64,000 bases of DNA, from the NCBI GenBank assembly GCA_030432235.1, contig JAUIHT010000012.1, positions 1 to 64,000 on the forward strand, given 5' to 3'. The notes under the pieces were generated by a model that was not told the DNA's origin, ran no database searches, and was given only the letters and a program-made list of their open reading frames with translations. The DNA comes from Verrucomicrobiia bacterium (GTDB taxonomy: Bacteria; Verrucomicrobiota; Verrucomicrobiia; Opitutales; Cerasicoccaceae). The translations under genes were made by a program, and so were the position numbers. This document shows, in pieces, positions 30,290-58,645 of this stretch; the first letter of the stretch is position 1; each line of letters opens with the position of its first letter.

Positions 30290-30452
30290 AAAAAACCTAA
30301 AAGAATCTAATGGCTGCGATCACGCTTACGCCATCATTCCCAAAGCGACACAAATTCAATACATGAAGCTGAAAGACAACGCAGAATTGATGTCGATTGA
30401 CTACCTGATAGGCACTGTACTCAAACTACGTTCGCCAAAGAAGACTCAGTGA
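30290..30452 (+). pseudogene. Decayed 3' end of an XRE/endonuclease-like regulator
   Basis: The frame reads CDHAYAIIPKATQIQYMKLKD, then NAELMSIDYLIGTVLKLRSPKK, almost identical to the last 48 residues of the regulator at 6350-7033. A weaker match (SLGLLLTKNLKESNG) extends a little upstream, but the helix-turn-helix part is missing. It is a remnant of the same gene in the same position relative to the att-like site. Confidence 0.8.
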
Positions 30453-30624
30453 CGATAGGCAATGGATTTGCCAATTATTTGCCAAAATCCAGACATCTAG
30501 GTGCATTTCTCGTCACATCATTGCACTTGATAGATTTCGCATCATGCTAATAGATAACACTTAATGAATCTAGGAGCATATAGATGAACATCTCATACGG
30601 GTTCGAGTCCCGTCCATCCCGCCA
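30311..30624 (+). repeat. Direct repeat copy 2: regulator 3' end plus tRNA 3' end
   Basis: Matches 6890-7195, with the same order of regulator end, spacer of about 150 bases and att-like core. It marks the right side of the glycan region and the left end of the conjugative element. Confidence 0.75.
30602..30624 (+). other. att-like site: 3' end of a tRNA gene (copy 2)
   Basis: Same 23-base core as at 7173-7195 (22/23). Here the T-arm is perfect (ACGGG-TTCGAGT-CCCGT) and is followed by CCATCCC-G-CCA, but no anticodon or D arm can be folded upstream, so only the 3' third of a tRNA is present. It lies 57 bases before the integrase start, the classical attL-int arrangement. Confidence 0.75.
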
Positions 30625-30681: not shown

Positions 30682-32115
30682 ATGCCCACGATTCCGAAAC
30701 GTCGCACTTTGCCCAAGCCTTCCGTTTTCCGGAACGCTTCCACTGATCAGTGGGTCTGCGAATACCATGAGTACGACGACAAGGGGCAGCCCCGCGCCCG
30801 GCGCAAATCCTTTGTCCGGGACTTGAAGCGGGAAGGCAAGGAAGCCACCCTCACCGAACAGCGCACGGCAGCGCTGGCCATGCGGGATGAACTGCTTAAG
30901 CAGCAAAGCGAGCAGAAGCGCAAGGAACGCCGGGAACATGAGCAGACCCATCTTACCCCCGTGCAACTGCGCGAGGCCAAGGCGGCCTTTGCGATATTTG
31001 ACCAAATTCAGTACCGCCACAAAAGTCTGGTCGATGCGGTCATCCAATATCGTGACAGCTTGGAGCGCTACGAGGACACACCACAACTTGCCGATTGCGT
31101 CGGCATCTTCCTGGGGCGTAAGCAGGAGGCCGCCGATGCCGGACGCCTGAGCCAACGAACGTTTCAAACCCTGCAACAGCGCTTACAGCATATGCAGCGG
31201 TATTTCGAGGCCAAGCAACCTAATGTAAAAATCGGGGATATTCACTCAAACCACCTGATTGATTATCTGGACGGTCTCGGCGTTAGCCAGCGCACCCTGC
31301 GTAATTACATCACCGATATTGGGAATTTCTTTCATGATGCCTCAGACGAACGCGACAAGAACCGCCTCCTCAAGGAAAACCCCATGGGCGGGGTCGTGCT
31401 GCATTACCGCAAACATAACCATTCCTCCCTGCTCAAACCGACGAGCACCACGCTCAAAATACCGAAAATTCTGCAACTGGAGCAGTCCCAGCACGCACTC
31501 AATATCGCCTATCAGGATCGCAAATATGGCGTTCTCGGCTTTGTCGTCTGCGGGCTATTGCTCGGGATGCGTCCCAGCGAAGTCTTCGACCTGACCGCAG
31601 AGCCGGATTACTGGAAGCGTTTCGTCAGGCTGGACGAGGGCGTTATGCGCATCGAGGGCTTCGGGAAGAAACGCGATCAGCGGGCCATTGTGATGCCGGA
31701 TAATGCGAAAGCCTGGTTAACCCTGATTCACGATAAAGGCTGGCCGCTGTGCTTCAAAGTCAACGCCAGGGGCCGAAATGTCCGCTACATGAACTTTCGC
31801 GCCCGCGCCTACTTGCCCGATAAGGAAGCTGCTGAGCGCCTCATTCCACTGAGGCGCCTGCACAAGCAGGGCAAGAAACTGAATGAGGAGGAGAAGGCCT
31901 TCATGGAGGAATGCAACACGACCCTGCAAGAGTATGAAGACGTTTTACGCCATACCTTTGGGACTAATTACTACTATGATAGCGGTTTCGACAAAAACCG
32001 CACGATTGAGCAGATGGGCCATAGCTCGGAGGTCTTTGTTGAGCACTACCGGGGCCTGCTCAACAACACCAAAGATGCGGAGGCGTATTTTGCACTGCAC
32101 CCGGATAAATTTTAG
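30682..32115 (+). CDS. Tyrosine recombinase/integrase of the element
   Basis: The 477-aa protein has an N-terminal arm- and core-binding region and a catalytic domain with Arg297 (GLLLGMRPSEVFDL), DVLRHTFGTN with Arg423, His447 (EQMGHSSEV) and the nucleophile Tyr456 (VEHYRGLL). The first His of the canonical HxxR box is Asp420 here, a known variation. It lies 57 bases from a tRNA 3'-end att-like site, so it should catalyse integration and excision there. No ribosome site is visible before the ATG, in line with a leaderless message. The strand, position and downstream HTH gene agree with the left end of an integrative conjugative element. Confidence 0.92.
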   Translation: MPTIPKRRTLPKPSVFRNASTDQWVCEYHEYDDKGQPRARRKSFVRDLKREGKEATLTEQRTAALAMRDELLKQQSEQKRKERREHEQTHLTPVQLREAKAAFAIFDQIQYRHKSLVDAVIQYRDSLERYEDTPQLADCVGIFLGRKQEAADAGRLSQRTFQTLQQRLQHMQRYFEAKQPNVKIGDIHSNHLIDYLDGLGVSQRTLRNYITDIGNFFHDASDERDKNRLLKENPMGGVVLHYRKHNHSSLLKPTSTTLKIPKILQLEQSQHALNIAYQDRKYGVLGFVVCGLLLGMRPSEVFDLTAEPDYWKRFVRLDEGVMRIEGFGKKRDQRAIVMPDNAKAWLTLIHDKGWPLCFKVNARGRNVRYMNFRARAYLPDKEAAERLIPLRRLHKQGKKLNEEEKAFMEECNTTLQEYEDVLRHTFGTNYYYDSGFDKNRTIEQMGHSSEVFVEHYRGLLNNTKDAEAYFALHPDKF

Positions 32116-32589: not shown

Positions 32590-33042
32590 CTACAGAGCCC
32601 CAGCCTCGGAAAAGCTATAATATCCTTTACCGCCGGGATCATCCCCAGCCTCGCCGATAATGATGTGATCAATCAGATCGATACCGATGATGTTGCCTGC
32701 TTCACGCAATTGGCGCGTCACATGAAGGTCCGCCGAACTTGGAGCGGGATTGCCGGAAGGATGGTTATGGCTGACAATGATGGCACTGGCCCCGGCCAGA
32801 ATGGCGGGGCGGAAGGCCTCGCGGGGATGAACCAGCGCAGAGCTGGCGGTTCCCACCGTTACGGCAATCCGCCCGAAAGGACGGTTCTTGCGGTTGAGTG
32901 GGATGACAATGAACTGTTCCTGCAAGGGATAGGTGTCAAAAGCCCCCCGCAGGTAACGGACAACCGCCGCCGGGTCATCAAGGGAAACCTCCTCGCCTTG
33001 AGCTACCACGCGGTAAACAATACTAGCTTCAAAGATTTTCAT
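32590..33042 (-). CDS. RadC-like JAMM/JAB-domain protein
   Basis: Start at MKIFEASIVYRV, whose ATG overlaps the previous gene's stop as TGATG. The open frame upstream to 33192 is in another gene's region. The 150-aa protein has the JAMM zinc signature: His92, His94, Ser102 and Asp105 in SHNHPSGNPAPSSAD. RadC-like JAB proteins are common in mobile elements and defence islands. Their role in repair is disputed, and a DNA-metabolic or antirestriction role during transfer is possible. It is the second gene of a minus-strand pair that starts behind repeat copy 33312-33540. Confidence 0.85.
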   Translation of the reverse strand: MKIFEASIVYRVVAQGEEVSLDDPAAVVRYLRGAFDTYPLQEQFIVIPLNRKNRPFGRIAVTVGTASSALVHPREAFRPAILAGASAIIVSHNHPSGNPAPSSADLHVTRQLREAGNIIGIDLIDHIIIGEAGDDPGGKGYYSFSEAGAL

Positions 33043-33296
33043 CAGAGAGCCCCCCTTAGCTGCTTCATCAGTTGGACGCCGGAAACGCCCCAGCGCAGGG
33101 AAACAAGATAGAGCGCCTTCGCCGTCCGCTCTAAGGCAGGCAGTTCGCGAATTTCTTCGGCTGCGTCCTGAAGACGCTGATGGTAAAACCATGTCTCGGC
33201 CATCAATTGGTTGTAGACCGGGTGGGAAAAGCGCCCGCGTGGGTCAACCTCGCCCACAAGTCGGTCGGGGCGGCGGTAATAAGTATTCGGTTTCAT
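33042..33296 (-). CDS. Small element protein coupled to RadC
   Basis: An 84-aa basic protein (MKPNTYYRRPDRLVGEVDPRG, ending RWGVSGVQLMKQLRGAL) with a helical middle part. Its stop overlaps the RadC ATG by one base, so the two are translated together. Its start lies about 15 bases inside the end of the duplicated structured segment. No family is recognised. It is unlikely to be an enzyme at this size and more probably a DNA- or protein-binding factor. Confidence 0.55.
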   Translation of the reverse strand: MKPNTYYRRPDRLVGEVDPRGRFSHPVYNQLMAETWFYHQRLQDAAEEIRELPALERTAKALYLVSLRWGVSGVQLMKQLRGAL

Positions 33297-33311: not shown

Positions 33312-33540
33312 GCGGCTTCCGTGATTGAAAGCCTGCTTTTCCCTGCCAAGCGGCGAGCGAAGCCAAGCGTGCCCGCAGCGATGGCCGTCAGGCCGCCGTC
33401 AACGGTGGAGATTTTTGCGCCGAGCGCGGAAGCAAGGAGCCCATGACGAAGCTGCACAAGCGAACGGAAAAATACGACCTTGACGGCTCGGAGCGAAGGG
33501 CTGGCACAATATTGCTTTCCTGCTGGCAGGAAAGCAGGCG
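33312..33540. repeat. Duplicated 230-bp structured segment, copy 1 (upstream of the RadC operon)
   Basis: About 94% identical to 39050-39279. It starts 15 bases upstream of the minus-strand gene at 33042-33296. Its two ends are complementary (GCCTGCTTTTCCC near one end, GGCAGGAAAGCAGGC at the other), a local hairpin CTTTCCTGC-TG-GCAGGAAAG ends it, and inner GC-rich stems are evident. The position and foldback suggest a shared promoter or leader, possibly a single-stranded-DNA promoter. Confidence 0.8.
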
Positions 33541-33682
33541 CTCAAACCACTGCTCTTACCCCAAAATCTTGGTTCAACTGCCTGTATCGCGCGTCAGTTC
33601 GAGAAGGAAATATCTAAGCAAAGTCAGGGAGTTCCAGCAGCACCGCAGTCTTCATTTACACCTGAAGATAGCCATTGACATG

Positions 33683-33715
33683 TTGCTTGCATCACGATTG
33701 GTTGTTGCTAACAAC
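33683..33715 (+). promoter_or_regulatory. Candidate promoter with operator palindrome for the RM-like module
   Basis: TTGCTT (33683-33688) and TGCTAA (33706-33711) are 17 bases apart. The palindrome GTTGTT-GCT-AACAAC (33701-33715) covers the -10. A Shine-Dalgarno-like AAGGTG precedes the ATG at 33731. This is the arrangement of a self-repressing control gene. Confidence 0.45.
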
Positions 33716-33730
33716 ACTTTAAGGTGTCGC

Positions 33731-34192
33731 ATGCCCATAAAATACACCATAGCCCAGTTGCGTGAGAGTGTCGGTCTTTCTAAAGAAACATTCCGGCATT
33801 GGCGTACGGTGATCCCATTTCTTGAGGAGCTTCAGGGACGTTCCGCTCAAGTTTTGCCCGAACATTTTGTGGCCACAGCGATATTGAACGAAATCAGCGG
33901 ACAATCCGGTATCAAGATAGGGAGCCTCAGTGTTATGTCGGGGACAATTTTTTCGATTTGTCGAGAAATGCCTTGGACAACGTTGGAGTCGGGCTGGCTC
34001 CTGATCGAGCCGGAAAGTCATCGTTGCGAGTTTGTGAATGAGGTTGACCTGCACCAAATACGCAATGTAGTGCTCATTTGCCCACTACTGTCAACTATCC
34101 GACGCCTTAAAGGGATGTTGGCCGTTAACACGATTGCCGGCCCCCAAGAATTCTTGCCCCTTGTCCACGCCCCGGCTGCTGTAACGCCCTAA
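33731..34192 (+). CDS. MerR-type HTH regulator of the RM-like module (153 aa)
   Basis: I use the ATG at 33731, because AAGGTG lies eight bases upstream and the longer open frame to 33443 is inside the duplicated segment. The N-terminus MPIKYTIAQLRESVGLSKETFRHW has the look of a MerR/HTH_17-like domain. About 90 residues follow, with SLSVMSGTIFSIC and WLLIEPES, of unknown fold. It precedes the methyltransferase by 19 bases and faces the same way, so it is probably a control protein for it, comparable in logic to C proteins of restriction-modification systems. The palindrome before its start supports self-regulation. Confidence 0.55.
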   Translation: MPIKYTIAQLRESVGLSKETFRHWRTVIPFLEELQGRSAQVLPEHFVATAILNEISGQSGIKIGSLSVMSGTIFSICREMPWTTLESGWLLIEPESHRCEFVNEVDLHQIRNVVLICPLLSTIRRLKGMLAVNTIAGPQEFLPLVHAPAAVTP

Positions 34193-34211
34193 TAGCTCTG
34201 GAGAATTTTCA

Positions 34212-37200
34212 ATGCACGCACTTGTACCCATCGCGCTCAGTAAAGAGTGGAAGCAACGTCTGGGGATAGACGATCGCTCTACTGAGCAATTGTGCCAAGC
34301 GACTGATGCGATAAGAAATACTGCGCATGCGGGGGCTATTCGGATGGCGCTCAGGGACATTGGAATTTCCGCAATATTCTGTATCCAAGAAATACCAACC
34401 ATTGCGATTATCCAATCAGAGGTCTATGACGCCGAGGCCGTTAAGGAGGTTCATGCAAAGCTATGGAATCAAGGCTTGGCCCAGTTGCTGTTGGTCATTT
34501 GCGGAGATACGATCCGGATTTTTACACTCTCAAAAACCCCGAAAAGGGTAAACGAGTCTGAATTTGAAGCTCGATGCCTCATTGAAACCCTCACGCTTGC
34601 CGCCCATGCGGCCAAGATTGGTGGACTCGTGTATGGAGCTGAATCGGGACGCCTGTGGACTGAGTATTCAGATTATTTCGTGCGCGAGGAACGAGTCGAT
34701 CGTGACCTCCTAAAGAACCTAAGGCAAACCCACGAGCGCTTGGTCAAGAATGGACTTCTGTCGGAGGAGGCACAGGCGCTTCTCATCCAGACGATGTTTA
34801 TCGCATATCTGGAAGACCGTGGTATTATCGGCAAAGATTATTATACCGATATTCACCCCAGCGCGCCAGCAGGCTTTCAGGATATCCTCGATTCCAGTAA
34901 TCTGACGCACTTTGCCAAACTGTTTGCGAAACTTCAGGGGCATTTTAACGGCGACCTATTTGTGGCCCCTTGTTCCTTTGAGATTTCAAGGAGGCGCGCC
35001 TCCATTTCCGAGGATCATTTACGCCTGCTCAAAAGCTTCCGTTGCGGTGATGTGGTAATGGACGAGCGAGGAGACCAATTGGTCTTCTGGGGCTATGACT
35101 TCAAATACATTCCTATTGAACTCATCAGCGCAGTCTATGACAAGTTTCTGGGCGAGCAAGAGGAAGAACGACGGGATCAGGGAGCCTATTACACCCCCAT
35201 GTTCTTGTCAGACATCGTTGTTTCTCAGGTTTGGGAAATGCTGAATGATGAAAAGAGGGAGCATGGCATCGTCTTTGATCCTGCTTGCGGGTCAGGCATT
35301 TTTCTCGTCCGTATTTTCCAGAGACTATGCGAGCACTGGCGTAGTACACGCCAAACGAAAACGATACGCTGGGATAGTTTACTCAAGATACTCGCGCGAC
35401 TTCACGGATGCGATATCAATGCCGGAGCCTTGCGCATCACGGGTTTTTCGCTCTATCTGGCGCTGCTTCAGGAAGTCAGCCCTCCAGATATTCAGGAGCT
35501 TCTCAAAAAAGGGCGTATACTACCGACCCTATGGGGAGGACAGCTAAGGAATCAGGATTTTTTTGCTTTTCCCGAGGAAAATCTGAAGGCTGATATCATC
35601 ATTGGAAATCCCCCTTGGGCCAGTCGCCGTGCCAGTCACCGTTTATCGATTGCCTGGTGTCAGAAAGCAAAGTTGCCGATGCCTCTCAAGGAAGAGGCTT
35701 GGGCATTTGCCTGGAAATCGATGCGACACCTTCGACACGGAGGGGTACAAGCATTTCTACTCCCGGCAATGGGCTTTCTGCACAATCATTCGGGCGAGTC
35801 CGTTCAAGCTCGTCGAGCCCTTCTTTCCAACTCTAGGGTAAAACGAGTCATCGATTTTTCGGATCTGCGTTTTATCCTCTTTGCTGGTGCAGTACGTCCT
35901 ACATCGCTTATCATTCTTGAAAAGGCGGCTCAAACCGAGAGTCCCTACAAGATCGACTTCTGGGCACCTAAAGCAGATTTGAACGCACAAACGCAAGGCA
36001 TACTCACACTCAGCCACATGGACAAGTGTGCCATTCATTCACAAGATGCAATCACGGATCCCCTGACCTTTAAGCGGTCACTCTGGATGAGTAAGCCAGA
36101 GGTCAAGCTCTATCGCTACCTAGCGGGCTTCCCTGATATCGGAGAAATTACGGTCAAGTATTCTTCAACATCAAAAAAATCGCCTGCACCACCCAATAAA
36201 TGGGTAATTGGGCAGGGACTAAAGCCCGGGAACAGGAATGAGCCTAAGCATGATGATTATGGCGAATGTCCAGAAATTCGTGGCTATCCGCACCTAAGAA
36301 TATCTGAATTTAGCACCATACATCAGGAGATAGACGGCCAGAAGCCTCTGGACGACTACTACTTGCATCGGGCCGGTTTTATTGACGGCTTTACCGGACC
36401 GCGCATACTCATTCCTCGCGGCATCGCGATCAAATCTAATCGGCTGCGGGCGGCCTTCTGCGAAAAGAAAGCCACTGTTCAAGATATATTCCAGATTATC
36501 CGTATTCCAGAAAGCCAATTAAACCTCGGCAAGGCGTTTGCGGCTATCTATTCGAGTAAGCTAATGATGTGGTTTGCGCTGCATGCCACGGCGTCATTTG
36601 GCACAGAGCGCCCTGAGATTAAGCTGTCTGATATTCTGCGTTTACCATTTCCAATGCCGGCAGATTTGCCGGATAAACGTTCTTCGGAAAAGCTCCTGGA
36701 CACGCTCTCTGCGATTATAGATGAGTGCACCCAGCATCGCTCAAGCTTGCTTCACGAAGATACCGCGCCATTTCTTAAAAAAATCGATGCGCTCGTGTAT
36801 CAGTACTTTGGGCTAAGCGCCGAGGAAATCAAACTCGTCGAGGACACTGTAGAATATCGTATCCCTGCGATTCAACCAAGTGCGAATTCCAAACCGGAAA
36901 TATGGAAACCAGCAAATCGTGATCAGCGACATGCATTCTCTGAAACGCTGATTTCTAGTCTGTCTCAATGGTTTACTGAAGACACTCACATTTGCGCAGC
37001 GCTCATTGCTGCCAATCAAGACATCGGCATTCTGAAGCTATCGATCGGAAGTAAACCAAGGGCGAGTAGCTATCAGGAGGAAGCCCATCATGATGTTTCC
37101 AATGCATTGCACATACTGCACAATCAACTGAAACAACCCATATCGAGAAATTTTCAATTATTCCCTGACTATCGGTTTTTTTCGGAAAGCAGTCTTTATC

Positions 37201-37319
37201 TGGTAAAACCCATGCAGTTGAGGTTCTGGCTCCCCTCTACCGCTTTAGCAGATGCCGACTCTATTGCACTTGATCTCCAGCAGCATATTGATGGGCCTAA
37301 CAAAGCTTACGCAAAATGA
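34212..37319 (+). CDS. N6-adenine DNA methyltransferase, Type IIG/Eco57I-like
   Basis: The 1035-aa protein has an N-terminal region with SEVYDAEAVKEVHAKLWNQG as in PglX/Type IIG proteins. The AdoMet-binding motif DPACGSGIFL follows (residues 356-362 onward), then YYTP upstream of it and the catalytic NPPW (466-469), giving an m6A class. The C-terminal half fits a target-recognition region (GFIDGFTGPRILIPRG). Length suits a Type IIG or BREX-like enzyme, but no clear N-terminal PD-(D/E)XK site is visible. It overlaps the next gene by ATGA (37316-37319), and that gene carries a nuclease site. It probably methylates host DNA at a specific site, and its partner cuts. Confidence 0.85.
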   Translation: MHALVPIALSKEWKQRLGIDDRSTEQLCQATDAIRNTAHAGAIRMALRDIGISAIFCIQEIPTIAIIQSEVYDAEAVKEVHAKLWNQGLAQLLLVICGDTIRIFTLSKTPKRVNESEFEARCLIETLTLAAHAAKIGGLVYGAESGRLWTEYSDYFVREERVDRDLLKNLRQTHERLVKNGLLSEEAQALLIQTMFIAYLEDRGIIGKDYYTDIHPSAPAGFQDILDSSNLTHFAKLFAKLQGHFNGDLFVAPCSFEISRRRASISEDHLRLLKSFRCGDVVMDERGDQLVFWGYDFKYIPIELISAVYDKFLGEQEEERRDQGAYYTPMFLSDIVVSQVWEMLNDEKREHGIVFDPACGSGIFLVRIFQRLCEHWRSTRQTKTIRWDSLLKILARLHGCDINAGALRITGFSLYLALLQEVSPPDIQELLKKGRILPTLWGGQLRNQDFFAFPEENLKADIIIGNPPWASRRASHRLSIAWCQKAKLPMPLKEEAWAFAWKSMRHLRHGGVQAFLLPAMGFLHNHSGESVQARRALLSNSRVKRVIDFSDLRFILFAGAVRPTSLIILEKAAQTESPYKIDFWAPKADLNAQTQGILTLSHMDKCAIHSQDAITDPLTFKRSLWMSKPEVKLYRYLAGFPDIGEITVKYSSTSKKSPAPPNKWVIGQGLKPGNRNEPKHDDYGECPEIRGYPHLRISEFSTIHQEIDGQKPLDDYYLHRAGFIDGFTGPRILIPRGIAIKSNRLRAAFCEKKATVQDIFQIIRIPESQLNLGKAFAAIYSSKLMMWFALHATASFGTERPEIKLSDILRLPFPMPADLPDKRSSEKLLDTLSAIIDECTQHRSSLLHEDTAPFLKKIDALVYQYFGLSAEEIKLVEDTVEYRIPAIQPSANSKPEIWKPANRDQRHAFSETLISSLSQWFTEDTHICAALIAANQDIGILKLSIGSKPRASSYQEEAHHDVSNALHILHNQLKQPISRNFQLFPDYRFFSESSLYLVKPMQLRFWLPSTALADADSIALDLQQHIDGPNKAYAK

Positions 37320-37966
37320 CCGAAGGAAATCCTAGCGTATGGGCAGAGCGGTTTAAGTCTCTAGACACGAGGTTACTGGGATGCATCCATCGCGTATGGC
37401 CACTCTGCGTTATGCGATTTTCTAGCTCTCAAACACTACCCATAGAAGATGCAATCACCCTAAATCTCCTTGACTGTCTTGCCAAGGATGCGGAGGTGAG
37501 ACGTATCGGGTATTTCGAATATCAATATGAACCTCTTCGCTATGATGAAAACGGCATAGCAATTAGCTTAGGCAAGATCGATCTAGCCTGCATAATTGAT
37601 AATGATCGCAATGCTTACCTTGCTTATGAGTGCAAACGCCTGAATGTCCAAGGCAAGAAGGGGCGTTCTTCCCTCGCAACGGAGTATGCGATGGAAGGAC
37701 TGCAACGGTTCGTAACCGAACAGTATTCAGAGCATCTCCCCATTGGTTGTATGCTGGGGTATGTGATGGACAGTGACGTTCAACACGCAAAGGATGCGAC
37801 GCAGAAAGCGATCAATGTGAATGCCACAAGTCTCAAGCTTGTGAACGGCATCAACAACTTGGGAGCCTGCGGACGATTTATTCGCTATCAAACGTCGCAC
37901 AATAGGCAGCGGACATGTAAATCAAAAAGCATATTGATTTACCATACCCTACTCCCCTTTTGTTAG
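37316..37966 (+). CDS. PD-(D/E)XK endonuclease-like partner of the methyltransferase
   Basis: In this 216-aa protein the segment GKIDLACIIDNDRNAYLAYECKRLN gives the nuclease triad Asp89, Glu105 and Lys107, with an upstream helix Glu44 (IEDAITLNLL). This is the layout of a restriction-endonuclease fold. The end HTLLPFC matches the length of such partners, so the gene is probably complete. It overlaps the methyltransferase stop (ATGA), which suggests equal expression. It is likely to cut unmethylated or modified DNA with that enzyme. A type II or IV-like function is an inference, and I do not know this exact pair as a named system. Confidence 0.65.
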   Translation: MTEGNPSVWAERFKSLDTRLLGCIHRVWPLCVMRFSSSQTLPIEDAITLNLLDCLAKDAEVRRIGYFEYQYEPLRYDENGIAISLGKIDLACIIDNDRNAYLAYECKRLNVQGKKGRSSLATEYAMEGLQRFVTEQYSEHLPIGCMLGYVMDSDVQHAKDATQKAINVNATSLKLVNGINNLGACGRFIRYQTSHNRQRTCKSKSILIYHTLLPFC

Positions 37967-38117
37967 TCCACCGATTGAACGCTATGACCAAGTCGTCCTT
38001 GGAGGAAATCGACGAGATACCTATTTTCCACCTTTTCCGTCTTCCGTATCTATGTAGTGTGGAATATTCTAGTAGATGTAGATTTTTGCATAGTAACACT
38101 TCATGCTGAACGAACGC

Positions 38118-38153
38118 ATAATCCGGCCTGAGGCTAGCCTCAGGCCGGATTAT
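38118..38153. terminator. Perfect 36-bp palindromic terminator between convergent genes
   Basis: ATAATCCGGCCTGAGG (38118-38133), a central CTAG, and CCTCAGGCCGGATTAT (38138-38153) form one perfect palindrome. TTTC follows on the plus strand. It serves as the end of the RM-like transcript and, read the other way, of the ArdC transcript. An ORF called across it on the minus strand (37878-38180) is therefore not a gene. Confidence 0.8.
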
Positions 38154-38176
38154 TTTCTTGGTGTTAGGTGTATAAG

Positions 38177-39028
38177 TCACTCCTCGGACTGACCCAGAAT
38201 TAGATTGGCTGCTTTCTGGGCCTGACTGGCGGCAGTGACAACCAGCTTGTTGTCACCCTTGAGGACACGAATCCAGCCCTGCAAGTAAGCAGCGGAGTTC
38301 TCCATCACGCTGTTGTCGATACCGCAGTGGGCGCAGAGGAAAGCGGCGGTCATCTCGGCAACGAGTTCCTCGCGGGAATAATCACCATCGCCGAAGCTTC
38401 CTCCGATCTTGCGGTTCAGTCGCTTCTCCACTCCGGTGGCGTGCCCCAGTTCATGAAAGAGCGTGCAATAATATTCTGCCGAAGAAGTAAAACGCATTTG
38501 GGGCGGCAACTGGATCATGTCTTTTTCCGGGATATAGCAGGCCTGCTGGTATCCGTGGAGCACCTCGGGGCCGTCAGCCCATCCCTCAAGCACACGTTCG
38601 GCGGCTTCAATGGGCGAAAAGTTCAACGGCTGAGCCTCCGGCAGGTCGGGAAACTCGACGCCTTCGACCTGACAGGCGTTAAAGACAATGTAAGCTTTGA
38701 GGAAGGGAATCTTGCGGGCCTCTTCCTGATCATCTCCCGGGCTTTCTTTCCCGGCTTCGAGTGTTCCCCAGTAAACCACTGGCAAGCCTTTGCTGCCCTT
38801 GAGCACCTTCCCGCCTTTGGCTTTCACCTGATGAAAAGTAATGAACCAGGGCAGGTCAAAGGCCATCGCTTCCAGCAAGAACCAGTTAACCCCGGAATAA
38901 GGCCGGTCGCTGACAAAATTGCGGGGACGCAACCGCAAACGATTCCAGGGACGGCGCCACGGACAGACCCCCTGTTCCAAGAGTTCAAGCATGCGTTCGG
39001 TAACACGGGCATAAGCGGATTTCTTCAT
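38177..39028 (-). CDS. ArdC-like antirestriction protein (ssDNA-binding plus zincin)
   Basis: The 283-aa protein has an N-terminal ArdC-type single-stranded-DNA-binding region (VTERMLELLEQGVCPWRRPW), a YSGVNWFLLE stretch, and the zinc protease motif HELGH at 192-196 with a downstream Glu (EELVAEMTAAF). Antirestriction proteins of this type protect incoming conjugative DNA and are typical of the leading region. The gene begins about 20 bases past the second copy of the duplicated segment, which probably drives it. The segment copy also lies upstream of the RadC pair, so these two operons may be expressed together upon transfer. Confidence 0.9.
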   Translation of the reverse strand: MKKSAYARVTERMLELLEQGVCPWRRPWNRLRLRPRNFVSDRPYSGVNWFLLEAMAFDLPWFITFHQVKAKGGKVLKGSKGLPVVYWGTLEAGKESPGDDQEEARKIPFLKAYIVFNACQVEGVEFPDLPEAQPLNFSPIEAAERVLEGWADGPEVLHGYQQACYIPEKDMIQLPPQMRFTSSAEYYCTLFHELGHATGVEKRLNRKIGGSFGDGDYSREELVAEMTAAFLCAHCGIDNSVMENSAAYLQGWIRVLKGDNKLVVTAASQAQKAANLILGQSEE

Positions 39029-39049
39029 GATAGGCTTCTTTCGGGTTGA

Positions 39050-39279
39050 GCGGCTTCCGTAATTGAAAGCCTGCTTTTCCCTGCCAAGCGGCGAGCGAAG
39101 CCAAGCGTGCCCGCAGCGATGGCCGCCAGGCCGCCGTCAACGGTGGAGATTTTTGCGCCGAGCGCGGAAGCAAGGAGCCCGCGACGTAGCTGCACAAGCG
39201 AACGGAAAAATACGACCTTGACGGCTCGGAGCGTAGGGCTGGCACCATCCGCCTTTTCCTGCGGGCAGGAAAGCAGGCG
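39050..39279. repeat. Duplicated 230-bp structured segment, copy 2 (upstream of ArdC)
   Basis: About 94% identical to 33312-33540, with the same complementary ends (GCCTGCTTTTCCCTGCC and GGCAGGAAAGCAGGC). The terminal hairpin is kept although its loop changed from TG to GG. It lies about 20 bases upstream of the ArdC start. Confidence 0.8.
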
Positions 39280-39540
39280 AATCAAACGTCGCTACTGTGA
39301 ATTTTGGGAAACGGATGCCTCGTCCCTGCTACGCGATTTGTAAAAAACAGCATAAAAAATGCTTTTACCTACGATTATTAAGTGCTCATTCTTTGACTAC
39401 GCTAAGCTATTGATTGCAAAGCGACATTCCTCATGCCCCCCTCCAACAGTCTTCCTTGTACGTCAACGCGCGAAAAATTATGAGTGTCCGATAATCAGTA
39501 TTGAGAAAATTGAAATTCGACTCACCACCTTTTCTACTTC
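39280..39540. other. Gap before the SIR2-like/NTPase gene
   Basis: About 260 bases of AT-rich sequence without a gene. It should hold the promoter of the two-gene module. I do not see a clear -35/-10 pair. GC drops sharply compared with the duplicated segment on the left. Confidence 0.4.
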
Positions 39541-42500
39541 ATGATTTTTGATATGGCGAATCCTTTCCAAGAAGCACTTCAACGTGGCCCCTCAATCTTG
39601 TTCCTAGGTCAAGAAACCTTACGATTTCAGACAGGTATCGACCCTCTGCTTCAAGAACTAGGAAAGCACTACGCAGTAGAGAGACCACTGGCCAATTATC
39701 GACAACTTCTCGATTTCACCGCCAATGGTACTAACCCCAATTTCGACTGGTTATCAACATGCTGCGCTAAACTTGGACCACCTGCTTGGCTAGTGTCTGT
39801 CGCTGAATATCCCTGGAGCGCTGTCTATTCATCAGCAATCGATAATATCTGGTCACTGGCATTCAAAACAAGCTGGAGAGCCATCCAACCTTACTACTGC
39901 CCTTCGCCAGACAACTATCGACGCAACAAGCTCAGAATAGCTTGCAACCACCTCTTCGGTGGAATCGGCGCACCGGAGACTGAGGGAAGACCTCCTCTAA
40001 AGCAGCTTGGGTTTATCACATGTGAGCAACTGGCCAATGCAATCATTGCAACTCTTGATACCGTTATCACACCAATAGGTAGTCTAGTTATTGAAGCCTA
40101 CGATCCGGAGAATGATTGGCTTAAATTTGAAACTCTGGCAGGACTAATCAATAAACTCGAAAAGAACCAAGCATTCTTCTTTTCAGCCCCCTCGTCACTT
40201 CGCAATAACCCTCTCGCCCAAGAATTAATCGCATCAGGGCAGCTTCATTTATACTCAGCGCCTTTAGGTGAAGTTCTGTCTCAAATGGCAGAAAGTGGTA
40301 ATATCTTACTTGGCCCGCCCAAGGGGGATACAGGAACAGGCAGAATGATTAGAATTGAGAAACAGCCTGTTAATCTCGCTACTGCAAAATGGATAAATAT
40401 TTCCCGGGCAGGACAGCCACTTGATATTTCGATTTTTGAGGAACCAATAGCAAAATCGCCGGAAAAACGTTATCAGGATTTTCGAAGCTTTCTTATGACA
40501 AGCTCCTCATCTCCGTCTTGGAGTGGCTATGTAGCTGGTTTTGCATTCGAACGCGACTATTACACTAGTTTTGGGGATACGAATATCAAGAGAAAGACAT
40601 TGAAAGAAACAACTCTTTCTCAGCTAGAACGAAGAATTCCCATGGGAAAACCTATAATTCTACATGGAGGCGCCGGCTCAGGAAAAACAGTTACTCTCGG
40701 CCTCCTTGCCTATGACGTAGCGAAGGAAGGTAAGTATCCTGTGATTTTTATTCCTCAACATCTGAGAACTCCTAACTATGAATCTCTAGAACAATTCTGT
40801 AAATGGAGTGAGGATAATGGCGCTTGCGTCACATTAGTCATCTGGGACGGGATGAAGGAATTGCGAGAATATCAAAACCTCATTGCTTATTTGGAAGGAA
40901 CAAAAGGAAGACGAATTGTTGTTGTTGGCAGCTCTTATCGGAAATCTCAAAATGTTTTTCGTGATTCTCTTCTAATTGACACTGATACAAAACTGCTAGG
41001 CAATGAAAAGAAACGCTTCTCGGCGTTCCTTGCTGGCTTAAAGCCTGGGATTCAGCAGCCAAATGTACTAGAAAAAATCATTGATCGTGACGATGGGCAT
41101 TTTTTTGTCGCTCTTTTCAGGTTGTTACCTGAAACCGCATCGAACCTCACTTCTGCTGTCGAGCAGGAAGGCCGTTATTGGATGACAATTGAAGCTAACT
41201 TTGCTCAAAAAATTGAGAAAATTGAAAAATCAAAAAAGTTCAATTCGCTAGAATTTGCCTTCGAAAAAGCCCTTAATAGTAGCGTAAATAAACAATCTAA
41301 GGGCACTACCGAACTTGACGATGATGAAAGCAGACACACCTCAGTCTCAAATGAACTAGTGCCGTACGTAATGGCTCCAAGTCAGTATGGTTTTTCAGTC
41401 CCTCTGGAATTGATTTCACGAATCGTAGGTCGTAACGCTTGGACTAGCATCCTAGAAACTAAATCTCATTCAGATTTAATTGAGATTATTGAGGATCCTG
41501 AAGGCGAACTTTATCTTCAATCACGGCACAGAGAAGAAGCGCGTCTGTATTGTCGCGCAGCAATACAGGATACAGGAAATGAAGTCGCTATTCTACGTCG
41601 ATTAATTGAAAACATTAAAATCGGAAGTGTCTTTTATGGACAATCAGAACTAGATTTCGCTACACGGCTCCTTTCATTGATTCACAATGACAGTCACAAG
41701 ATTAAATTTTCTTCTCACTATGCAGAATTTGCTGACGCATTGAAAACCTTGAGGGAAAATCGACAGACTAACTCACGCCTAGTTCTTCAAGAAGCAACGT
41801 TTCGCCGTAAGTCAATTAAGCAGAATAATGATTTGCAAAGCATAGCCGCACTAGAAGACGCAGAGGGGATTCTCAATGAAACACTTGGACAAAGAGAAGC
41901 CACTGAGAACACCTCACACATGAGTCAGCTATTAGGGGAACTCGCATCGTGTCAGGGCTTCAGAATGTCCACCTTAGCGGAGTTGAAAGGAAATCACAGT
42001 GCCTCAGCAAAAGAGGCCTTCTGTTCTTCGAGTAGCTCTGCTGAACATGCACGACGTCTTGATCCTACGAATATTCACGCTGTGGATGTAATGGCTTGGA
42101 CATCCTTGATCGCCTGTAAAAAAGGGCTACTTTCTGGCACAGAGCAAGTAGAGGCAATCGCTAAAGCCATCGCCAATATAGCGAGTGCGTGTCCAAACTC
42201 CTCAGAAGAAGAGACTCAGCTCTGGGGCCGTCTTCTGGAGCTCTCTCAATATGCGGGTCAAAAAGATATTGCTACGAAAGCATATGAAAATCTGGAAGCA
42301 AAAGGGTCCTCGCTAGGGTATTACTTAACTACTATTCAACAGTTAGGGAACGATTTGCTCCGAGCAGCGATATTAGGTCAAGATGAAGTCATCCCAGAAT
42401 CGAATATCAGCGCTTACCGCAAGTCTTTTGAATATCTTCATGAACACGAAGCGGCAGTTATCAATGATTTCCGAACAACATATTTGATGATCAGGCTCTG

Positions 42501-43023
42501 GTGGATCTCGAAAACCGGTTGGGCACTACTCCGTCACGAACACCTACGTGTCGCTTTCAAAGAATCCGATTGGGAATTACTGCTCAAATGGACAAGATCT
42601 ATTTCAATCCACGAAAACGACAACATAATCGTTCCAGCCAGATTCCTAGAGGCAATCGCGTGTTTTCATCTAGGACGTTCTGCCGATCATAATGAATTAT
42701 TCGAGTCAATTCGTCGCACCAATGATGCAGGAAGAATTCGCCGCCGACTTGTCGCATCAAATTCAGATGGAAGCGCCATTGTCGTCGACAACGGAGTCGT
42801 TAGTAGGACCACGATAAAGGGCGGAAAAACACCAAGTCGTTCAAAGACAGAAAAATCATTCGTAAAATTCACTTGGAAGGATGATGAATTTGAAATCCCA
42901 TTTCGAAACGATGATTTCTTTCGTACGGATCTTAAAGAAGGAGACATTCTGGATCCGTTTGTCGTGGCCTTTAATTATATAGGTCCCTTTGCCTTCCCCA
43001 GTGATTACTCTAGCCATTTATGA
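39541..43023 (+). CDS. SIR2-like / P-loop NTPase fusion, candidate antiphage sensor
   Basis: The 1160-aa protein begins with a SIR2-like Rossmann segment (SILFLGQETLRFQTGIDPLLQEL). YPWSAVYSSAIDNI (residues 90-103) matches the place of the SIR2 TNYD core, but key residues are changed, so the NAD site may be degenerate. A P-loop NTPase domain follows, with Walker A GGAGSGKT (376-383) and a Walker B-like VIWDG (Asp436). The C-terminal half is helical and repeat-like, as in STAND sensors. GC content is visibly lower than around it. A second ATG at 39553 (MANPFQEAL) is equally possible. It lies directly behind the duplicated segment and is followed after 6 bases by a second gene, typical of a defence module. 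It is probably an abortive-infection protein; its ligand and effector chemistry are unknown. Confidence 0.65.
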   Translation: MIFDMANPFQEALQRGPSILFLGQETLRFQTGIDPLLQELGKHYAVERPLANYRQLLDFTANGTNPNFDWLSTCCAKLGPPAWLVSVAEYPWSAVYSSAIDNIWSLAFKTSWRAIQPYYCPSPDNYRRNKLRIACNHLFGGIGAPETEGRPPLKQLGFITCEQLANAIIATLDTVITPIGSLVIEAYDPENDWLKFETLAGLINKLEKNQAFFFSAPSSLRNNPLAQELIASGQLHLYSAPLGEVLSQMAESGNILLGPPKGDTGTGRMIRIEKQPVNLATAKWINISRAGQPLDISIFEEPIAKSPEKRYQDFRSFLMTSSSSPSWSGYVAGFAFERDYYTSFGDTNIKRKTLKETTLSQLERRIPMGKPIILHGGAGSGKTVTLGLLAYDVAKEGKYPVIFIPQHLRTPNYESLEQFCKWSEDNGACVTLVIWDGMKELREYQNLIAYLEGTKGRRIVVVGSSYRKSQNVFRDSLLIDTDTKLLGNEKKRFSAFLAGLKPGIQQPNVLEKIIDRDDGHFFVALFRLLPETASNLTSAVEQEGRYWMTIEANFAQKIEKIEKSKKFNSLEFAFEKALNSSVNKQSKGTTELDDDESRHTSVSNELVPYVMAPSQYGFSVPLELISRIVGRNAWTSILETKSHSDLIEIIEDPEGELYLQSRHREEARLYCRAAIQDTGNEVAILRRLIENIKIGSVFYGQSELDFATRLLSLIHNDSHKIKFSSHYAEFADALKTLRENRQTNSRLVLQEATFRRKSIKQNNDLQSIAALEDAEGILNETLGQREATENTSHMSQLLGELASCQGFRMSTLAELKGNHSASAKEAFCSSSSSAEHARRLDPTNIHAVDVMAWTSLIACKKGLLSGTEQVEAIAKAIANIASACPNSSEEETQLWGRLLELSQYAGQKDIATKAYENLEAKGSSLGYYLTTIQQLGNDLLRAAILGQDEVIPESNISAYRKSFEYLHEHEAAVINDFRTTYLMIRLWWISKTGWALLRHEHLRVAFKESDWELLLKWTRSISIHENDNIIVPARFLEAIACFHLGRSADHNELFESIRRTNDAGRIRRRLVASNSDGSAIVVDNGVVSRTTIKGGKTPSRSKTEKSFVKFTWKDDEFEIPFRNDDFFRTDLKEGDILDPFVVAFNYIGPFAFPSDYSSHL

Positions 43024-43029
43024 TATATC

Positions 43030-43941
43030 ATGTCAATTAACCAAAAGCCTGAAAAGGCAGAGGCGATAGAGGCACTAATTAAGCAAATATGTCAACTGTC
43101 CCTGCTGACTGGTGAATCTTCAGCTCCGGGCCTATTTTATAGTTATAGCCCCCTGTCCATTCCAGAGCATGGTGAGATGCGGTTTTCATTTATCGTCTCC
43201 TGGCTGTACCAATTGTACCGTGAGCATGGGGGCGAGGGTCTAAAATACTGTAATCTCAAACTGAAGTCATCTTATCCTATAGAGGTATCACATTATCAGC
43301 TTGTCGACGACTTCCGTACGCTTAAACAGCACTCGATTATTACTCATACAAAAAGAAGTCTCGAACGTGAAGCTAGGTGTAAAGCTTGGTTCGTTTCTGT
43401 ATGTGCTGTCACTTCGCAATCCTTTCCTGAATCGTTGGAAGACTGGAATATTTCGGCAAATGCATTACTTCAAGCGGGCATCAATTATCTTAGCAGGATT
43501 CGAGAAATACTAGAGACATTTAAATCTGACTCAACTGGATTTCTGGTGAAGGAATTTCACATGATTCGACAACGAAGTATTGATCATGGAGATTTTGATC
43601 GATGGGTGGCCGAAATCGCAGCTGATTTAGGTTTTTCAACTTTAGATGTCGTTAAATTTAGGAATACTCATCATCAAACCATCATCCAAGACTTGAGAGT
43701 TCAACGATGGGACATTGATATTACACAATTTGTACGTGATAGAATCGCTAGCAGGATGATAATTCAGTACCCTAAATATGCTATAACGGTCGACGAATTG
43801 AAAGCTCACGGCGTTAAGCCTGGCCGTATGTTAGGTCATGCTCTTGCCGTAGCGGAAGAAATCTTCCGTAAAAGCGAATTCACTATGAAAAAAAATGATA
43901 TCATTTCAGAGCTTCGCAAACGTTCTCTAATTCCCCAATGA
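43030..43941 (+). CDS. Unknown partner of the SIR2-like/NTPase gene (303 aa)
   Basis: It starts 6 bases after the stop of the NTPase gene and shares its low GC, so the pair forms one operon. The protein is helix-rich with no signal peptide. Its last 60 residues (AITVDELKAHGVKPGRMLGHALAV) look faintly like the RNA-binding C-terminus of CCA-adding enzymes, where a GxxPGxxLG-like turn precedes a helix. This is a weak resemblance and could be chance. It is most likely a regulatory, sensing or immunity partner. No catalytic motif is seen. Confidence 0.5.
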   Translation: MSINQKPEKAEAIEALIKQICQLSLLTGESSAPGLFYSYSPLSIPEHGEMRFSFIVSWLYQLYREHGGEGLKYCNLKLKSSYPIEVSHYQLVDDFRTLKQHSIITHTKRSLEREARCKAWFVSVCAVTSQSFPESLEDWNISANALLQAGINYLSRIREILETFKSDSTGFLVKEFHMIRQRSIDHGDFDRWVAEIAADLGFSTLDVVKFRNTHHQTIIQDLRVQRWDIDITQFVRDRIASRMIIQYPKYAITVDELKAHGVKPGRMLGHALAVAEEIFRKSEFTMKKNDIISELRKRSLIPQ

Positions 43942-46459: not shown

Positions 46460-46999
46460 TTAGTCCTGTTCGAGTTCGGAAAGGCGACGCGAGAGATCGG
46501 CAATGGCCTGGTCACGTTTTTCAAGCTGGGCCTGCAAGACATCGTTCTGCTCGATCAGGGCGGCAATGAGAGTGTTGGCCTGGGCAATCTTGCTTTCCAA
46601 TTCACCGGAGAGCTGTCCGACCTGCTTGGCCGGATCGGCCACGGCCACAACCGGCCCCAAGGGCACCGCCGTGGGCGCGCTGGGAGTCAGGTTCCAGCGG
46701 GCGGGCTGTTCGATGCGCGCGATGCGGTGGGCGTCGTGACGCACGCCGGAGTCCTGTGGGTCCACATAAGGCCCCAGATAGTAGGCGTGAATCGACTCTG
46801 CGGTACGCACCTTGGCCATGTTGTTGGGATCGAGTTCGGTGCCGGATACCTGCACCGGCATGGATGGCGGTGGCGGCTCTTCCATGGACTGGGTGCTTTC
46901 GCAACCAGTCATCCATAACAGGACGACTACCGCTCCAGCCCAGCGAATGAGCCATGGATAAAGTTGTCTATTGGTTGAGGGTTTGATTCCAGATGTCAT
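46460..46999 (-). CDS. Lipoprotein downstream of TrbI (179 aa)
   Basis: Start at MTSGIKPSTNRQL (ATG at 46997-46999). The longer open frame overlaps trbI by 300 bases and has a non-protein composition. The lipobox is VLLWMTGC. A proline-rich stretch follows, then a C-terminal coiled coil (KQVGQLSGELESKIAQANTL, ALIEQNDVLQAQLEKRDQAI). It overlaps the trbI stop by 32 bases. It is last in the secretion operon and probably an outer-membrane or periplasmic accessory of the transfer apparatus. Confidence 0.65.
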   Translation of the reverse strand: MTSGIKPSTNRQLYPWLIRWAGAVVVLLWMTGCESTQSMEEPPPPSMPVQVSGTELDPNNMAKVRTAESIHAYYLGPYVDPQDSGVRHDAHRIARIEQPARWNLTPSAPTAVPLGPVVAVADPAKQVGQLSGELESKIAQANTLIAALIEQNDVLQAQLEKRDQAIADLSRRLSELEQD

Positions 47000-48029
47000 G
47001 ATTGCTGATGTTTCCGCGTGAACCTTCCGCCGCGTCGATGGTTTGGGTGACGTAGACGTAGAATTGCTTGCCCGCCGGGACCCGGATGTAAAAGCCGTCG
47101 CGTTCAATGGCGGCCTGAATCTGTTCGGCGTATTTTTCCAGCACCGCCGTGGTCCCGTCCAAGGCGGCGTTGCCCGCCGTCGCCTCGGCGATCTGGACGG
47201 TGGATCCGGTGTCGGTGACAAAGTTATCGTACTGCTTGAAGCCCTGCGTGGCGGCAGCCAGGAAAGTAGCGGCAAAGAGTTTTATCTCGTTCCAGTCGTC
47301 GGTCTTGATGAGGTAGCCCTTGAGACCCGCCGAGCCGTCCCGCAGGCCCCACTGGCCCGTGTTAAAGTCGTATTCGCGATCCAGCGCGATGCCCTGAAGA
47401 GTCAGTTCGGTTCCATTCAGTTCGCCCTTGGTGCGCCAAACGAAATTCCAGGTTCCGGTGGCCGCGATACGGTCTCGGGCGTGTCCTTCGCTGGCGCGGC
47501 CATGGACTTCGGCTCCGGCGGGAATGATGACTTTTCCGGCATGGTCCACGTCGTCGGTCACAAGCCCAATGACCGGCGTGTCGATGGAACTGCTTTCCAG
47601 AGTGATAATAAGCTCGCAGGGAATCAGCCTTCCATACGGCGCGTACTGCGCTGATAGTTCGGTCTGCTGCGGCGTGGTTCCCGTGAACAGATTGAGGGGA
47701 AGCTCGGGCGCGGCCTTCACATGTTCTTCTTTCTGCCGGGCCTGAATGGGGCGTGAAAATGGCGGCTCCTGCACCGACTGCGCTGGCGCTTCGGCCTGCT
47801 CGGGTGTTTCCACGGCGACAATGGCCGATGGCATTTTGAAGCGTGGGATGTCGCGCTTGTACACGTCCGGCTTGTAATCGTAGGCCTCGCCCGGTTCGGT
47901 AAAATCATCCGGCCCTTCATCCAAGGCGTTGAGGACGACGACCACCCCAATGAAGAGAATCATCATCAGGATGACGGCGGCGTTACCCAGAGGCGATTTG
48001 AGAAAGTTCAGCATGGGATTAGCGGTCAA
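46968..48029 (-). CDS. trbI: TrbI/VirB10-family protein
   Basis: The 353-aa protein has an N-terminal membrane helix (AAVILMMILFIGVVVVLNAL), a proline-rich linker, and the VirB10-like beta-barrel region (GRLIPCELIITLESSSIDTPV, GKVIIPAGAEVHGRA), ending with FYVYVTQTI. It should span inner and outer membranes in the T4SS core. The open frame begins at a TTG (48029), which overlaps the previous stop. An ATG at 48012-48014 (MLNFLKSPL) is also possible. It follows trbG, as in RP4/Tn4371-type operons. Confidence 0.85.
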   Translation of the reverse strand: MTANPMLNFLKSPLGNAAVILMMILFIGVVVVLNALDEGPDDFTEPGEAYDYKPDVYKRDIPRFKMPSAIVAVETPEQAEAPAQSVQEPPFSRPIQARQKEEHVKAAPELPLNLFTGTTPQQTELSAQYAPYGRLIPCELIITLESSSIDTPVIGLVTDDVDHAGKVIIPAGAEVHGRASEGHARDRIAATGTWNFVWRTKGELNGTELTLQGIALDREYDFNTGQWGLRDGSAGLKGYLIKTDDWNEIKLFAATFLAAATQGFKQYDNFVTDTGSTVQIAEATAGNAALDGTTAVLEKYAEQIQAAIERDGFYIRVPAGKQFYVYVTQTIDAAEGSRGNISNHDIWNQTLNQ

Positions 48030-48916
48030 GGAATGAGCAACCGGGCCGGGTCCTCGACCCGGGAGACAACGATTTGAAAGGCGTTGTGAACGCTGAGGTA
48101 AGCAGGCTCGCCGTTGGGCTGGCCGGTAATGGCGATATAGGCCACGCTGTCGGCCTGCGCCGGAATGATGCCGGAAGCGTCCGCGATGGACGGGTAATAC
48201 AGGTTCTGGCCCACGCGCACGGCCAGCATCTGCGGCTGATAGAAGATGTCCTCCTCGGAGTCGTTCTGGAAGGACACGCGGAAGACCAATGTGTCGTAAT
48301 GCGCGAAGCGAAAAACTTCGTCGATGGTCGCGCTGAAGTCTCTGTACTCGGTGGTCAGCCCTTCGGGCGCGAAGAATTCGACTTCCTCTTCCAGCATGCC
48401 GGGATAAGCCCGTTGAATCAGCGGGTAACTCTTGGCCCGGTCCAGCAAATCGACCAATACGGTGGGCGATGTTCGCCTTGGCGCTTCGCCGTTTACACCA
48501 AGCCCTGAGGCTGCCATGGGATCATCGCTCTGCACCAACCTCACGGTGCGGTAAGGAATTGAATCCTCATGGTTATAAAAATTGAAAGCGTAAGTCTGGT
48601 CCTGATAAACCACATTGAGCGCTCCACGTGCCTCAGGCTGCATGGCGCGCACGGAAAAGAAATACCTTCCCGCCACATAGCTTAAAAGCACGGGCGGTTT
48701 GTCTTTGGCGTTGGCGCCGATATTCGCCCCGTCGATGGAAGTCAGCGCCCCCGGAAAGGTGATGGTGGTCGGCGTGTTGCCAATGGGGATGTTGTAGACC
48801 GTCCGAGGGTTCAAGGCGTACTGCTTAATGACCTCGCGGTTGTTGCGATCCACCTCGGCCTGCATCAGCAGGGGCAGACACAGTCCGATGACGATAAAAA
48901 TGCGATTCGCGTTCAT
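48026..48916 (-). CDS. trbG: TrbG/VirB9-family protein
   Basis: The 296-aa protein has a signal peptide (IFIVIGLCLPLLMQA) and the start of a VirB9-like domain (VYNIPIGNTPTTITFPGALTSI). A C-terminal beta region follows (DTLVFRVSFQNDSEEDIFYQP). It should form the periplasmic/outer-membrane ring of the T4SS with TrbI. It is located between trbF and trbI with five bases or overlap spacing. The sequence is divergent, and identification rests on position plus these blocks. Confidence 0.75.
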   Translation of the reverse strand: MNANRIFIVIGLCLPLLMQAEVDRNNREVIKQYALNPRTVYNIPIGNTPTTITFPGALTSIDGANIGANAKDKPPVLLSYVAGRYFFSVRAMQPEARGALNVVYQDQTYAFNFYNHEDSIPYRTVRLVQSDDPMAASGLGVNGEAPRRTSPTVLVDLLDRAKSYPLIQRAYPGMLEEEVEFFAPEGLTTEYRDFSATIDEVFRFAHYDTLVFRVSFQNDSEEDIFYQPQMLAVRVGQNLYYPSIADASGIIPAQADSVAYIAITGQPNGEPAYLSVHNAFQIVVSRVEDPARLLIP

Positions 48917-48921
48917 GGGAA

Positions 48922-49608
48922 TTACAGAAGGATTTTTTCTTCGAAGGAGCCCACCGCCAGGGGGAAGCGTTTGTTCTCCAGCATATTGGGATTACGGTAC
49001 ATCACTAGGGTCAGGGTGAACTGCGGGTCTTCGACAAAGGTCTTCCCCTCGAAGCTGCCAGTGCGAATGAGCTGCCCCTTGACCTGGGCGAAAACCTGTT
49101 CGCCGCGCGTTTGCAGGATTTTGATTTCAAAGACCTCCACTTTCTGGTGGATGGACTTCTCCCGCATCTCCTTTTCGGCCTCGGCGTGTAGATGACGGGC
49201 CTCCTTCAGGGCATCACCAAGAAACAGCTTATCGAGGAGTTCCGGCATATCGAAGCCGTTCGGATTCTGGGAAAAGAGCGCGTAGGTCGCCCAGAGCGCG
49301 AGTTCCTCGTGCAAATGCGTCGCCTCCGTGAAATCGAGCGTGGGTGCGATGGAATACGTCCCTGCCCCATCCATGATGACGACGCGCTCCTTGGTGCGGT
49401 AGGCATTGATGATGAAGAAGGGCTGAATTACCACCCACCCCAATAGAGTGAGCGCAACGAGGAACCACAGCCGCGCCGCCCAGGCATTGTCCGTGAACAG
49501 TTTTAACGGATGGAAAGCGTTGCGGGCCGCGCGCGTCTTGCCGTGCTCCCGTGCTTTGACAGGATCGGGCCTCGACGTGTCCAAAGTCTCGGTTTCGGAT
49601 GCGTTCAT
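48922..49608 (-). CDS. trbF: TrbF/VirB8-family protein
   Basis: The 228-aa protein has a single N-terminal membrane helix (LWFLVALTLLGWVVIQPFFIIN) and a periplasmic alpha/beta domain with KVEVFEIKILQTRGEQVFAQVKG typical of the VirB8/TrbF nuclear-transport-factor-like fold. It is an inner-membrane T4SS core component. It overlaps trbL by four bases (ATGA at 49605-49608) and precedes trbG. Confidence 0.8.
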   Translation of the reverse strand: MNASETETLDTSRPDPVKAREHGKTRAARNAFHPLKLFTDNAWAARLWFLVALTLLGWVVIQPFFIINAYRTKERVVIMDGAGTYSIAPTLDFTEATHLHEELALWATYALFSQNPNGFDMPELLDKLFLGDALKEARHLHAEAEKEMREKSIHQKVEVFEIKILQTRGEQVFAQVKGQLIRTGSFEGKTFVEDPQFTLTLVMYRNPNMLENKRFPLAVGSFEEKILL

Positions 49609-50813: not shown

Positions 50814-50833
50814 GAATATGCTTCTCCCTTTAG

Positions 50834-51289: not shown

Positions 51290-51301
51290 GGCGATCTGCT
51301 T

Positions 51302-52105: not shown

Positions 52106-52109
52106 GACC

Positions 52110-58547: not shown

Positions 58548-58645
58548 GGCGAAGATTGTTTTATCTAAATATAAATTAATGGTAACTATCAATCGCCATC
58601 CTCAACGTGAATAGCCGATTTGAACTTGATGTGGCTTGACTACGC

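Follow-up and report, generated by a model that had tools for sequence, protein, structure and literature searches.

A ~210-nt element that stands in two copies within the 64,000-nt stretch of Verrucomicrobiota DNA analysed here (the window) is probably a single-stranded DNA promoter of a conjugative element, a function predicted from its copies, its fold and its promoter-like site. The best reading is that it belongs to a new, sequence-unrelated family of putative Frpo-like single-strand promoters. The strand that enters the recipient in single-stranded form would be the + strand of the window, which is template to both the radC and the ardC operon, and each copy would fold into a branched structure made of P0, P1, a long interrupted P3-P4 and, where the branches join, P5. 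On the 3' arm of that long hairpin, a TTGACA-like hexamer and, 18-20 nt farther out, a cAnnAT-like one would then be presented as duplex or at a junction. The host's RNA polymerase, carrying its main sigma factor, could start at this hexamer pair, taking as template first the 5' arm and next the gene in the 5' flank, and anti-restriction proteins would be made before second-strand synthesis. Once the DNA had become double-stranded, the promoter would face away from the gene and be off. We infer the polymerase start at the site, the on/off logic and the identity of the transferred strand.

The repeated segment, its copies and the genes behind them

The strongest repeat of the window is a gapless alignment of 33312-33510 with 39050-39248 (96% identity over 199 nt). 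With the 5' hairpin included, the whole segments span ~230 bp at ~94% identity, the figure put forward by an earlier sequence-only reading, and a 230-bp repeat at 94% is no chance event. The element proper has sharp ends and complementary termini, and the sequences upstream of different copies are unrelated. The core of copy 1 (33331-33539, minus strand; closing stem GCCTG...CAGGC) lies upstream of an 84-aa ORF and RadC, and its conserved 3' flank TTTCAATCACGGAAGCCG extends to 33312; the core of copy 2 (39069-39278, minus strand) lies upstream of ArdC. On the minus strand each core is followed by TTTCAATYACGGAAGCCGC, then an RBS-like stretch, then ATG, with a core-to-ATG distance of 34 nt in copy 1 and 40 nt in copy 2.

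Several other details of the sequence-only reading were borne out. It placed the end of each segment about 20 bases from a minus-strand start codon, and the distances are 15 nt for copy 1 (end at 33312, ATG at 33296) and 21 nt for copy 2 (end at 39050, ATG at 39028); the ends are complementary as it described, and the terminal hairpin is kept despite sequence change (CTTTCCTG/CAGGAAAG in copy 1, TTTCCTG/CAGGAAA in copy 2). Its account of the genes stands for copy 2, which is followed after 40 nt by an ArdC anti-restriction protein with ArdcN and MPTase-PolyVal domains (38177-39028, minus strand; PF08401 E=2.5e-30, PF18818 E=3.2e-41), but needs correction for copy 1, which is not directly before RadC. 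There the first gene is the 84-aa ORF (33042-33296, minus strand), which is without a Pfam match and has homologues behind the C3 and JBa copies; the RadC-like JAB domain protein (32590-33192, minus strand; PF04002 E=1.1e-36) comes second.

DNA and covariance-model searches recovered 17 distinct copies, and a second model (R2) added two divergent ones (G119 and G437) in another Opitutales family. The window's own genome holds a third, divergent copy (C3) on another contig, before the same small ORF and RadC; other genomes supplied the 14 further distinct copies and the two divergent ones. All come from Opitutales, the order of the window, or from one Opitutaceae MAG. In the Opitutales sample, 9 of 372 genomes gave a match, including members of the window's family (Cerasicoccus frondis and the JB024 MAG) and Coraliomargarita, with one to four copies per genome. 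A phylum-wide sample of 387 genomes yielded no additional lineage with the element, the IMG/VR viral collection searched with the 3' motif yielded no whole element, and no Rfam family matched it at the gathering threshold or at E up to 1. A pattern match in a Chloroflexi MAG (L024) was confined to the 3' motif and was set aside as a chance hit. The apical motif of B-type copies, AACCTTTTCGNNNNCCGACCNCTATT, is present in two IMG/VR contigs (L103:10978-11003 and L104:611-636), of which L103 carries terminase-type phage genes.

Placement before genes is regular: 14 of the 17 copies end 33-41 nt upstream of a start codon, and the genes are of five types. ArdC stands behind six copies in total (c2, JBc, Cf1, Cf2, G228a and G228b), and the search of relatives for copies before ardC-like genes, which the sequence-only reading had suggested, found further ones. 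The small ORF follows three copies (c1, C3 and JBa), and in c1 and C3 RadC comes after it; two copies (OpA and HE) precede ArdA, two more (G163 and G388a) a DUF3560 protein succeeded by a small-domain methyltransferase, and the JBd copy has a small protein of unknown type downstream. In G388b the start codon is ~46 nt from the core, and no clear gene was found behind the Coral, JBb or divergent G437 copy. Likeness to a leading region lies here in the gene types alone: ardC, ardA, the small ORF with or without radC, and DUF3560-methyltransferase.

The fold, the strand that keeps it and the promoter-like site

Six helices can be registered across the copies, which are mutually related, with registers that are partly hand-set: P0 is the closing stem, P1 a hairpin, P3a-P3b-P4 a long interrupted hairpin and P5 a hairpin at the junction. 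P0 occurs as five alternative pairings (GCCTG/CAGGC, ACCTG/CAGGT, GCCAGC/GCTGGC, TCCCGT/ACGGGA and GCCTAG/CTAGGC), to which two late divergent copies add GGCACTGTA/TACAGTGCC and CCCTGTG/CACAGGG. P3b has been replaced wholesale among copies (ATTTTTGCG/CGCAAAAAT, ATGGGGCT/AGCCCCAT, CCCGGCCC/GGGCCGGG and ATCGAGAGGTTG/CAACCTCTCGAT). When the 3' arms were permuted among copies, the observed pairing was reached in 0 of 2000 permutations for each of P0, P1, P3a, P3b and P5, and in 22 of 2000 for P4 (B-type copies only). In A-type copies the apical pairing GCTTGTG/CRYRGGC would need G.U on the gene strand, and this helix was excluded from the pair counts; an mRNA structure built on it was rejected, as the G.U-rich helix is not conserved in Cf1, Cf2 or G388a.

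Because an A.C mismatch on one strand corresponds to a G.T pair on its complement, near-miss pairs reveal which of the two has been kept able to fold. When the gene strand is read, the helices contain 649 Watson-Crick pairs, 13 A.C, 1 G.T and 24 others (two-sided P=0.002, for related copies and partly hand-set registers), with the independent A.C events estimated at 10 or more. The excess of A.C over G.T on the gene strand points to the template strand as the one kept foldable. Folding of each strand, proposed as a check by the sequence-only reading and free of hand registers, agrees: of the two strands, the template has the stabler fold in 16 of 17 copies when DNA energies are used, and in all 17 under RNA energies. 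The same preference appears in both divergent held-out copies (G119 and G437) and in all five Frpo sequences of F-type plasmids used as a control, whereas TPP riboswitches of the same genomes behave in the opposite way (template strand more stable in 1/10). The extra stability that the template strand draws from G.T pairs is greater than in 30/30 shuffled sets; c1 and c2 gain nothing from such pairs, yet in both the template strand is the more stable. Pair counts and stability together favour a structure of the template strand over an mRNA leader.

That strand also carries its best sigma70-like pair at the identical aligned place in 17/17 copies, as TTKAC-N18-20-cAnnAT. The -35-like hexamer is TTGAC or a variant, and the -10-like one is usually TGGCAnnAT, its A2 and T6 being invariant in 17/17. 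The site is found in the long hairpin, on its 3' arm, and points outward; the template would accordingly be the 5' arm, then the gene. Copy 1 has TTGACG at 33480-33485 and CACAAT at 33505-33510; copy 2 has, as its best pair, TTGACG at 39218-39223 and CACCAT at 39243-39248. All four lie on the + strand, and in both copies TGG precedes the -10-like hexamer and the spacer is 19 nt. The sigma70 score averages 5.85, whereas the other strand reaches 4.76 and shuffles 4.85, with the E. coli consensus as the assumed preference of the host sigma factor. In the predicted fold the -35 is mostly paired (0.82) and the -10 is open more often (0.43 versus 0.68 overall). The spacer, mostly 19 nt, is long, and in none of the 17 copies does the -10 begin with T; its first base is always C or G. 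Held-out G119 shows TTGACG-N18-TATGGT; held-out G437 shows TTGAGC-N16-CACAAT, and there the best pair of the other strand scores slightly higher. Applied to Frpo of the F plasmid, the sigma70 scan picked out no single place on the outward arm; it is therefore uncalibrated by F, which validates the strand test only.

Alternative readings and known single-strand promoters

A structured 5' leader RNA of the anti-restriction operons (riboswitch-like or protein-responsive, and acting on the mRNA; compare the radC and STAXI motifs) is unlikely. It would fit the constant place 33-41 nt before start codons and the strong covariation, and the radC and STAXI motifs do occur near similar kinds of genes (STAXI: PMC2864571). 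Pairing, however, is kept by the other strand, with 13 A.C against 1 G.T when the gene strand is read as RNA; that strand is the less stable in 17/17 copies with RNA energies, opposite to TPP riboswitches, and Rfam offers no match. Another candidate is a site of ssi/sso type, which would serve mainly to prime synthesis of the second strand on the transferred one and would drive genes only as a side role. The same strand would be expected to fold, Frpo yields both primer RNA and mRNA (PMC7736820), and an sso is known in ICEBs1 (PMC4595007). Two copies in a single ICE and the fixed spacing to the starts of protective genes nonetheless point to expression as the selected function, which makes priming as the main role improbable, and the two roles are mutually compatible. 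Slightly less probable again is a structured antisense RNA made from the template strand: such an RNA would likewise keep G.U pairs on that strand, and the -35/-10-like pair could fire away from the gene in double-stranded DNA, but a start inside the element would transcribe only the 5' hairpin and upstream sequence, not the whole structure, and the pairs are nearly all Watson-Crick in an element that abuts the RBS and start codon.

The sharp ends, complementary termini and unrelated upstream sequences could also suggest a MITE- or REP-like mobile repeat with terminal inverted repeats, lying before these genes by accident. This is very improbable, and the candidate was rejected: placement before the starts of the five gene types is fixed in 14 of 17 copies, the inner helices covary, and each genome has one to four copies. 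Scatter as a simple repeat, which the sequence-only reading had named as evidence against itself, was looked for and is not what the copies show. Its other refuting outcome, the lack of a stable hairpin with promoter-like stems on the transferred strand, did not appear either: the strand likely to be transferred has the stabler fold in 16 of 17 copies (DNA energies) and the fixed -35/-10-like site in all 17. A folded site like integron attC was considered and is disfavoured, as the copies stand before genes and not behind them in cassette arrays.

The single-strand promoter reading draws its closest parallel from the F plasmid, where leading genes are preceded by two copies of Frpo that are 92% alike and lie 5.4 kb from each other, and where single-stranded folds provide -35 and -10 boxes that drive early expression in recipients (PMC9849209). 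Our check of F sequence gave copies ~90-95% alike, 5.4 kb apart and ending ~20 nt before ssb. Frpo/ssi segments of F-like and IncI plasmids share with the element a repeated segment that ends near the start codon of a leading gene such as ssb, a more stable template-strand fold, -35/-10-like boxes in the folded strand, anti-restriction genes downstream and, as in the element's ICE, a MobF relaxase. The differences are equally plain. The element is ~210 nt long and branched, with P0, P1 and P5 hairpins, whereas Frpo is one long hairpin of ~330-440 nt; and it resides in a Verrucomicrobiota ICE whose relaxase gene would enter first, unlike in Frpo plasmids. A sensitive-mode search of 72,556 plasmids returned no match to copy 1 or to the divergent JBd copy, while F-type Frpo gives at least 5,000 in that collection. 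Of the Frpo/ssi-type promoter proposed by the sequence-only reading, the predicted mechanism is thus supported by strand fold, fixed site and placement, and descent from Frpo is not; the element would fall in the functional class of Frpo and outside its sequence family.

The radC RNA motif is associated with radC and other DNA-handling genes. It is a covarying structure listed for Proteobacteria (PMC2864571); the element matches nothing in Rfam, even with E allowed to reach 1, and its fold preference is on the strand opposite to that of this motif (RF01754). A search for RF01754 in 36 relatives gave no match, with control genomes equally silent, so that its absence there is unproven. STAXI, a structured motif near ssb, antirestriction and integrase genes for which its authors considered single-stranded DNA (Weinberg et al. 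2010, PMC2864571), consists of tandem pseudoknots, and the element has no Rfam match to it; both motifs resemble the element in gene context only. The Frpo-like candidates that Samuel et al. (2024) described in anti-defence islands (PMC11541004) also stand before anti-defence genes on one strand of conjugative elements, with a predicted fold and -35/-10. Those were drawn from similarity or consensus in single islands, whereas 17 to 19 divergent copies of the element allow covariation and a strand test.

On balance we favour the view that putative single-strand promoters arose more than once, and that the branched, Frpo-unrelated family of Opitutales ICEs is a portable cassette placed before ardA, ardC, a small ORF with radC, and a DUF3560-methyltransferase. 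Single-strand promoters named in the cited literature belong to enterobacterial plasmids, further candidates there having come from similarity or single predicted folds. A second, unrelated family in the ICEs of another phylum, covarying on the strand that such a promoter should fold, would point to early expression from incoming single-stranded DNA as a general solution. It would also supply a search signature, namely strand-specific wobble asymmetry with an outward -35/-10, and the promoter could mark new anti-defence genes behind it.

The ICE and its likely transferred strand

Two 27-bp att-like repeats, resembling a tRNA 3' end, bound a 53.1-kb ICE (30598-30624, + strand, and contig 83683-83709). 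A phage-type integrase adjoins the left one (30682-32115, + strand; PF02899 E=6e-4, below the family cut-off). The ICE further contains RadC, ArdC, type IV secretion genes (46968-55198, minus strand, with TrbI at 46968-48029 and a TraG/TraC-type ATPase at 52550-55198), cargo and, outside the window, a MobF relaxase (contig 73852-76569, + strand) and a coupling protein gene. The apparent cargo comprises glycoside hydrolase-like, sulfatase and GDSL lipase genes (window 56961-63960 and L064). At 34212-43938, an Eco57I/N6-methylase-type restriction gene and its partner lie between the copies and a weakly nSTAND-like gene pair lies just past copy 2, all on the + strand; this is probably a defence island within the ICE.

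An oriT-like block, CCTTAnnnnTAAGG-GGTAAGGCGTCCC followed by AAACGC..GCGTTT, is conserved upstream of nine related MobF relaxases: at contig ~73770 for the ICE described above (L064:9770), and in L066, L076, L077, L078, L079, L081, L084 and L085. Its hairpin and constant flank are on the relaxase sense strand, where the nick would lie. Known MobF oriTs (R388, F) have a hairpin and then ~9 constant nt on the nicked strand. By this resemblance the relaxase sense strand (+) is likely the one transferred, that is, the strand that folds in the element. By the route through attP, copy 1 would lie ~13 kb and copy 2 ~19 kb behind oriT; the opposite direction would mean late entry. Seven copies have a MobF relaxase on their contig, and the genes behind every one of them run in the direction opposite to it. 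In plasmid R388 the relaxase gene enters last, whereas in this ICE it would enter first.

Some minor observations follow. The related ICEs of G128, G388 and G039 have a RadC-like gene adjoining the oriT-like block (L066:11131-11664 and relatives), with no element detected. A 161-nt direct repeat in the window, 86% identical (6882-7042 and 30301-30461), has its second copy just left of the ICE end and perhaps records an earlier insertion there. A tRNA-Phe gene found ~2.7 kb past the element elsewhere (L015:11966-12041 and L056:11620-11695) is the likely integration site of related ICEs.
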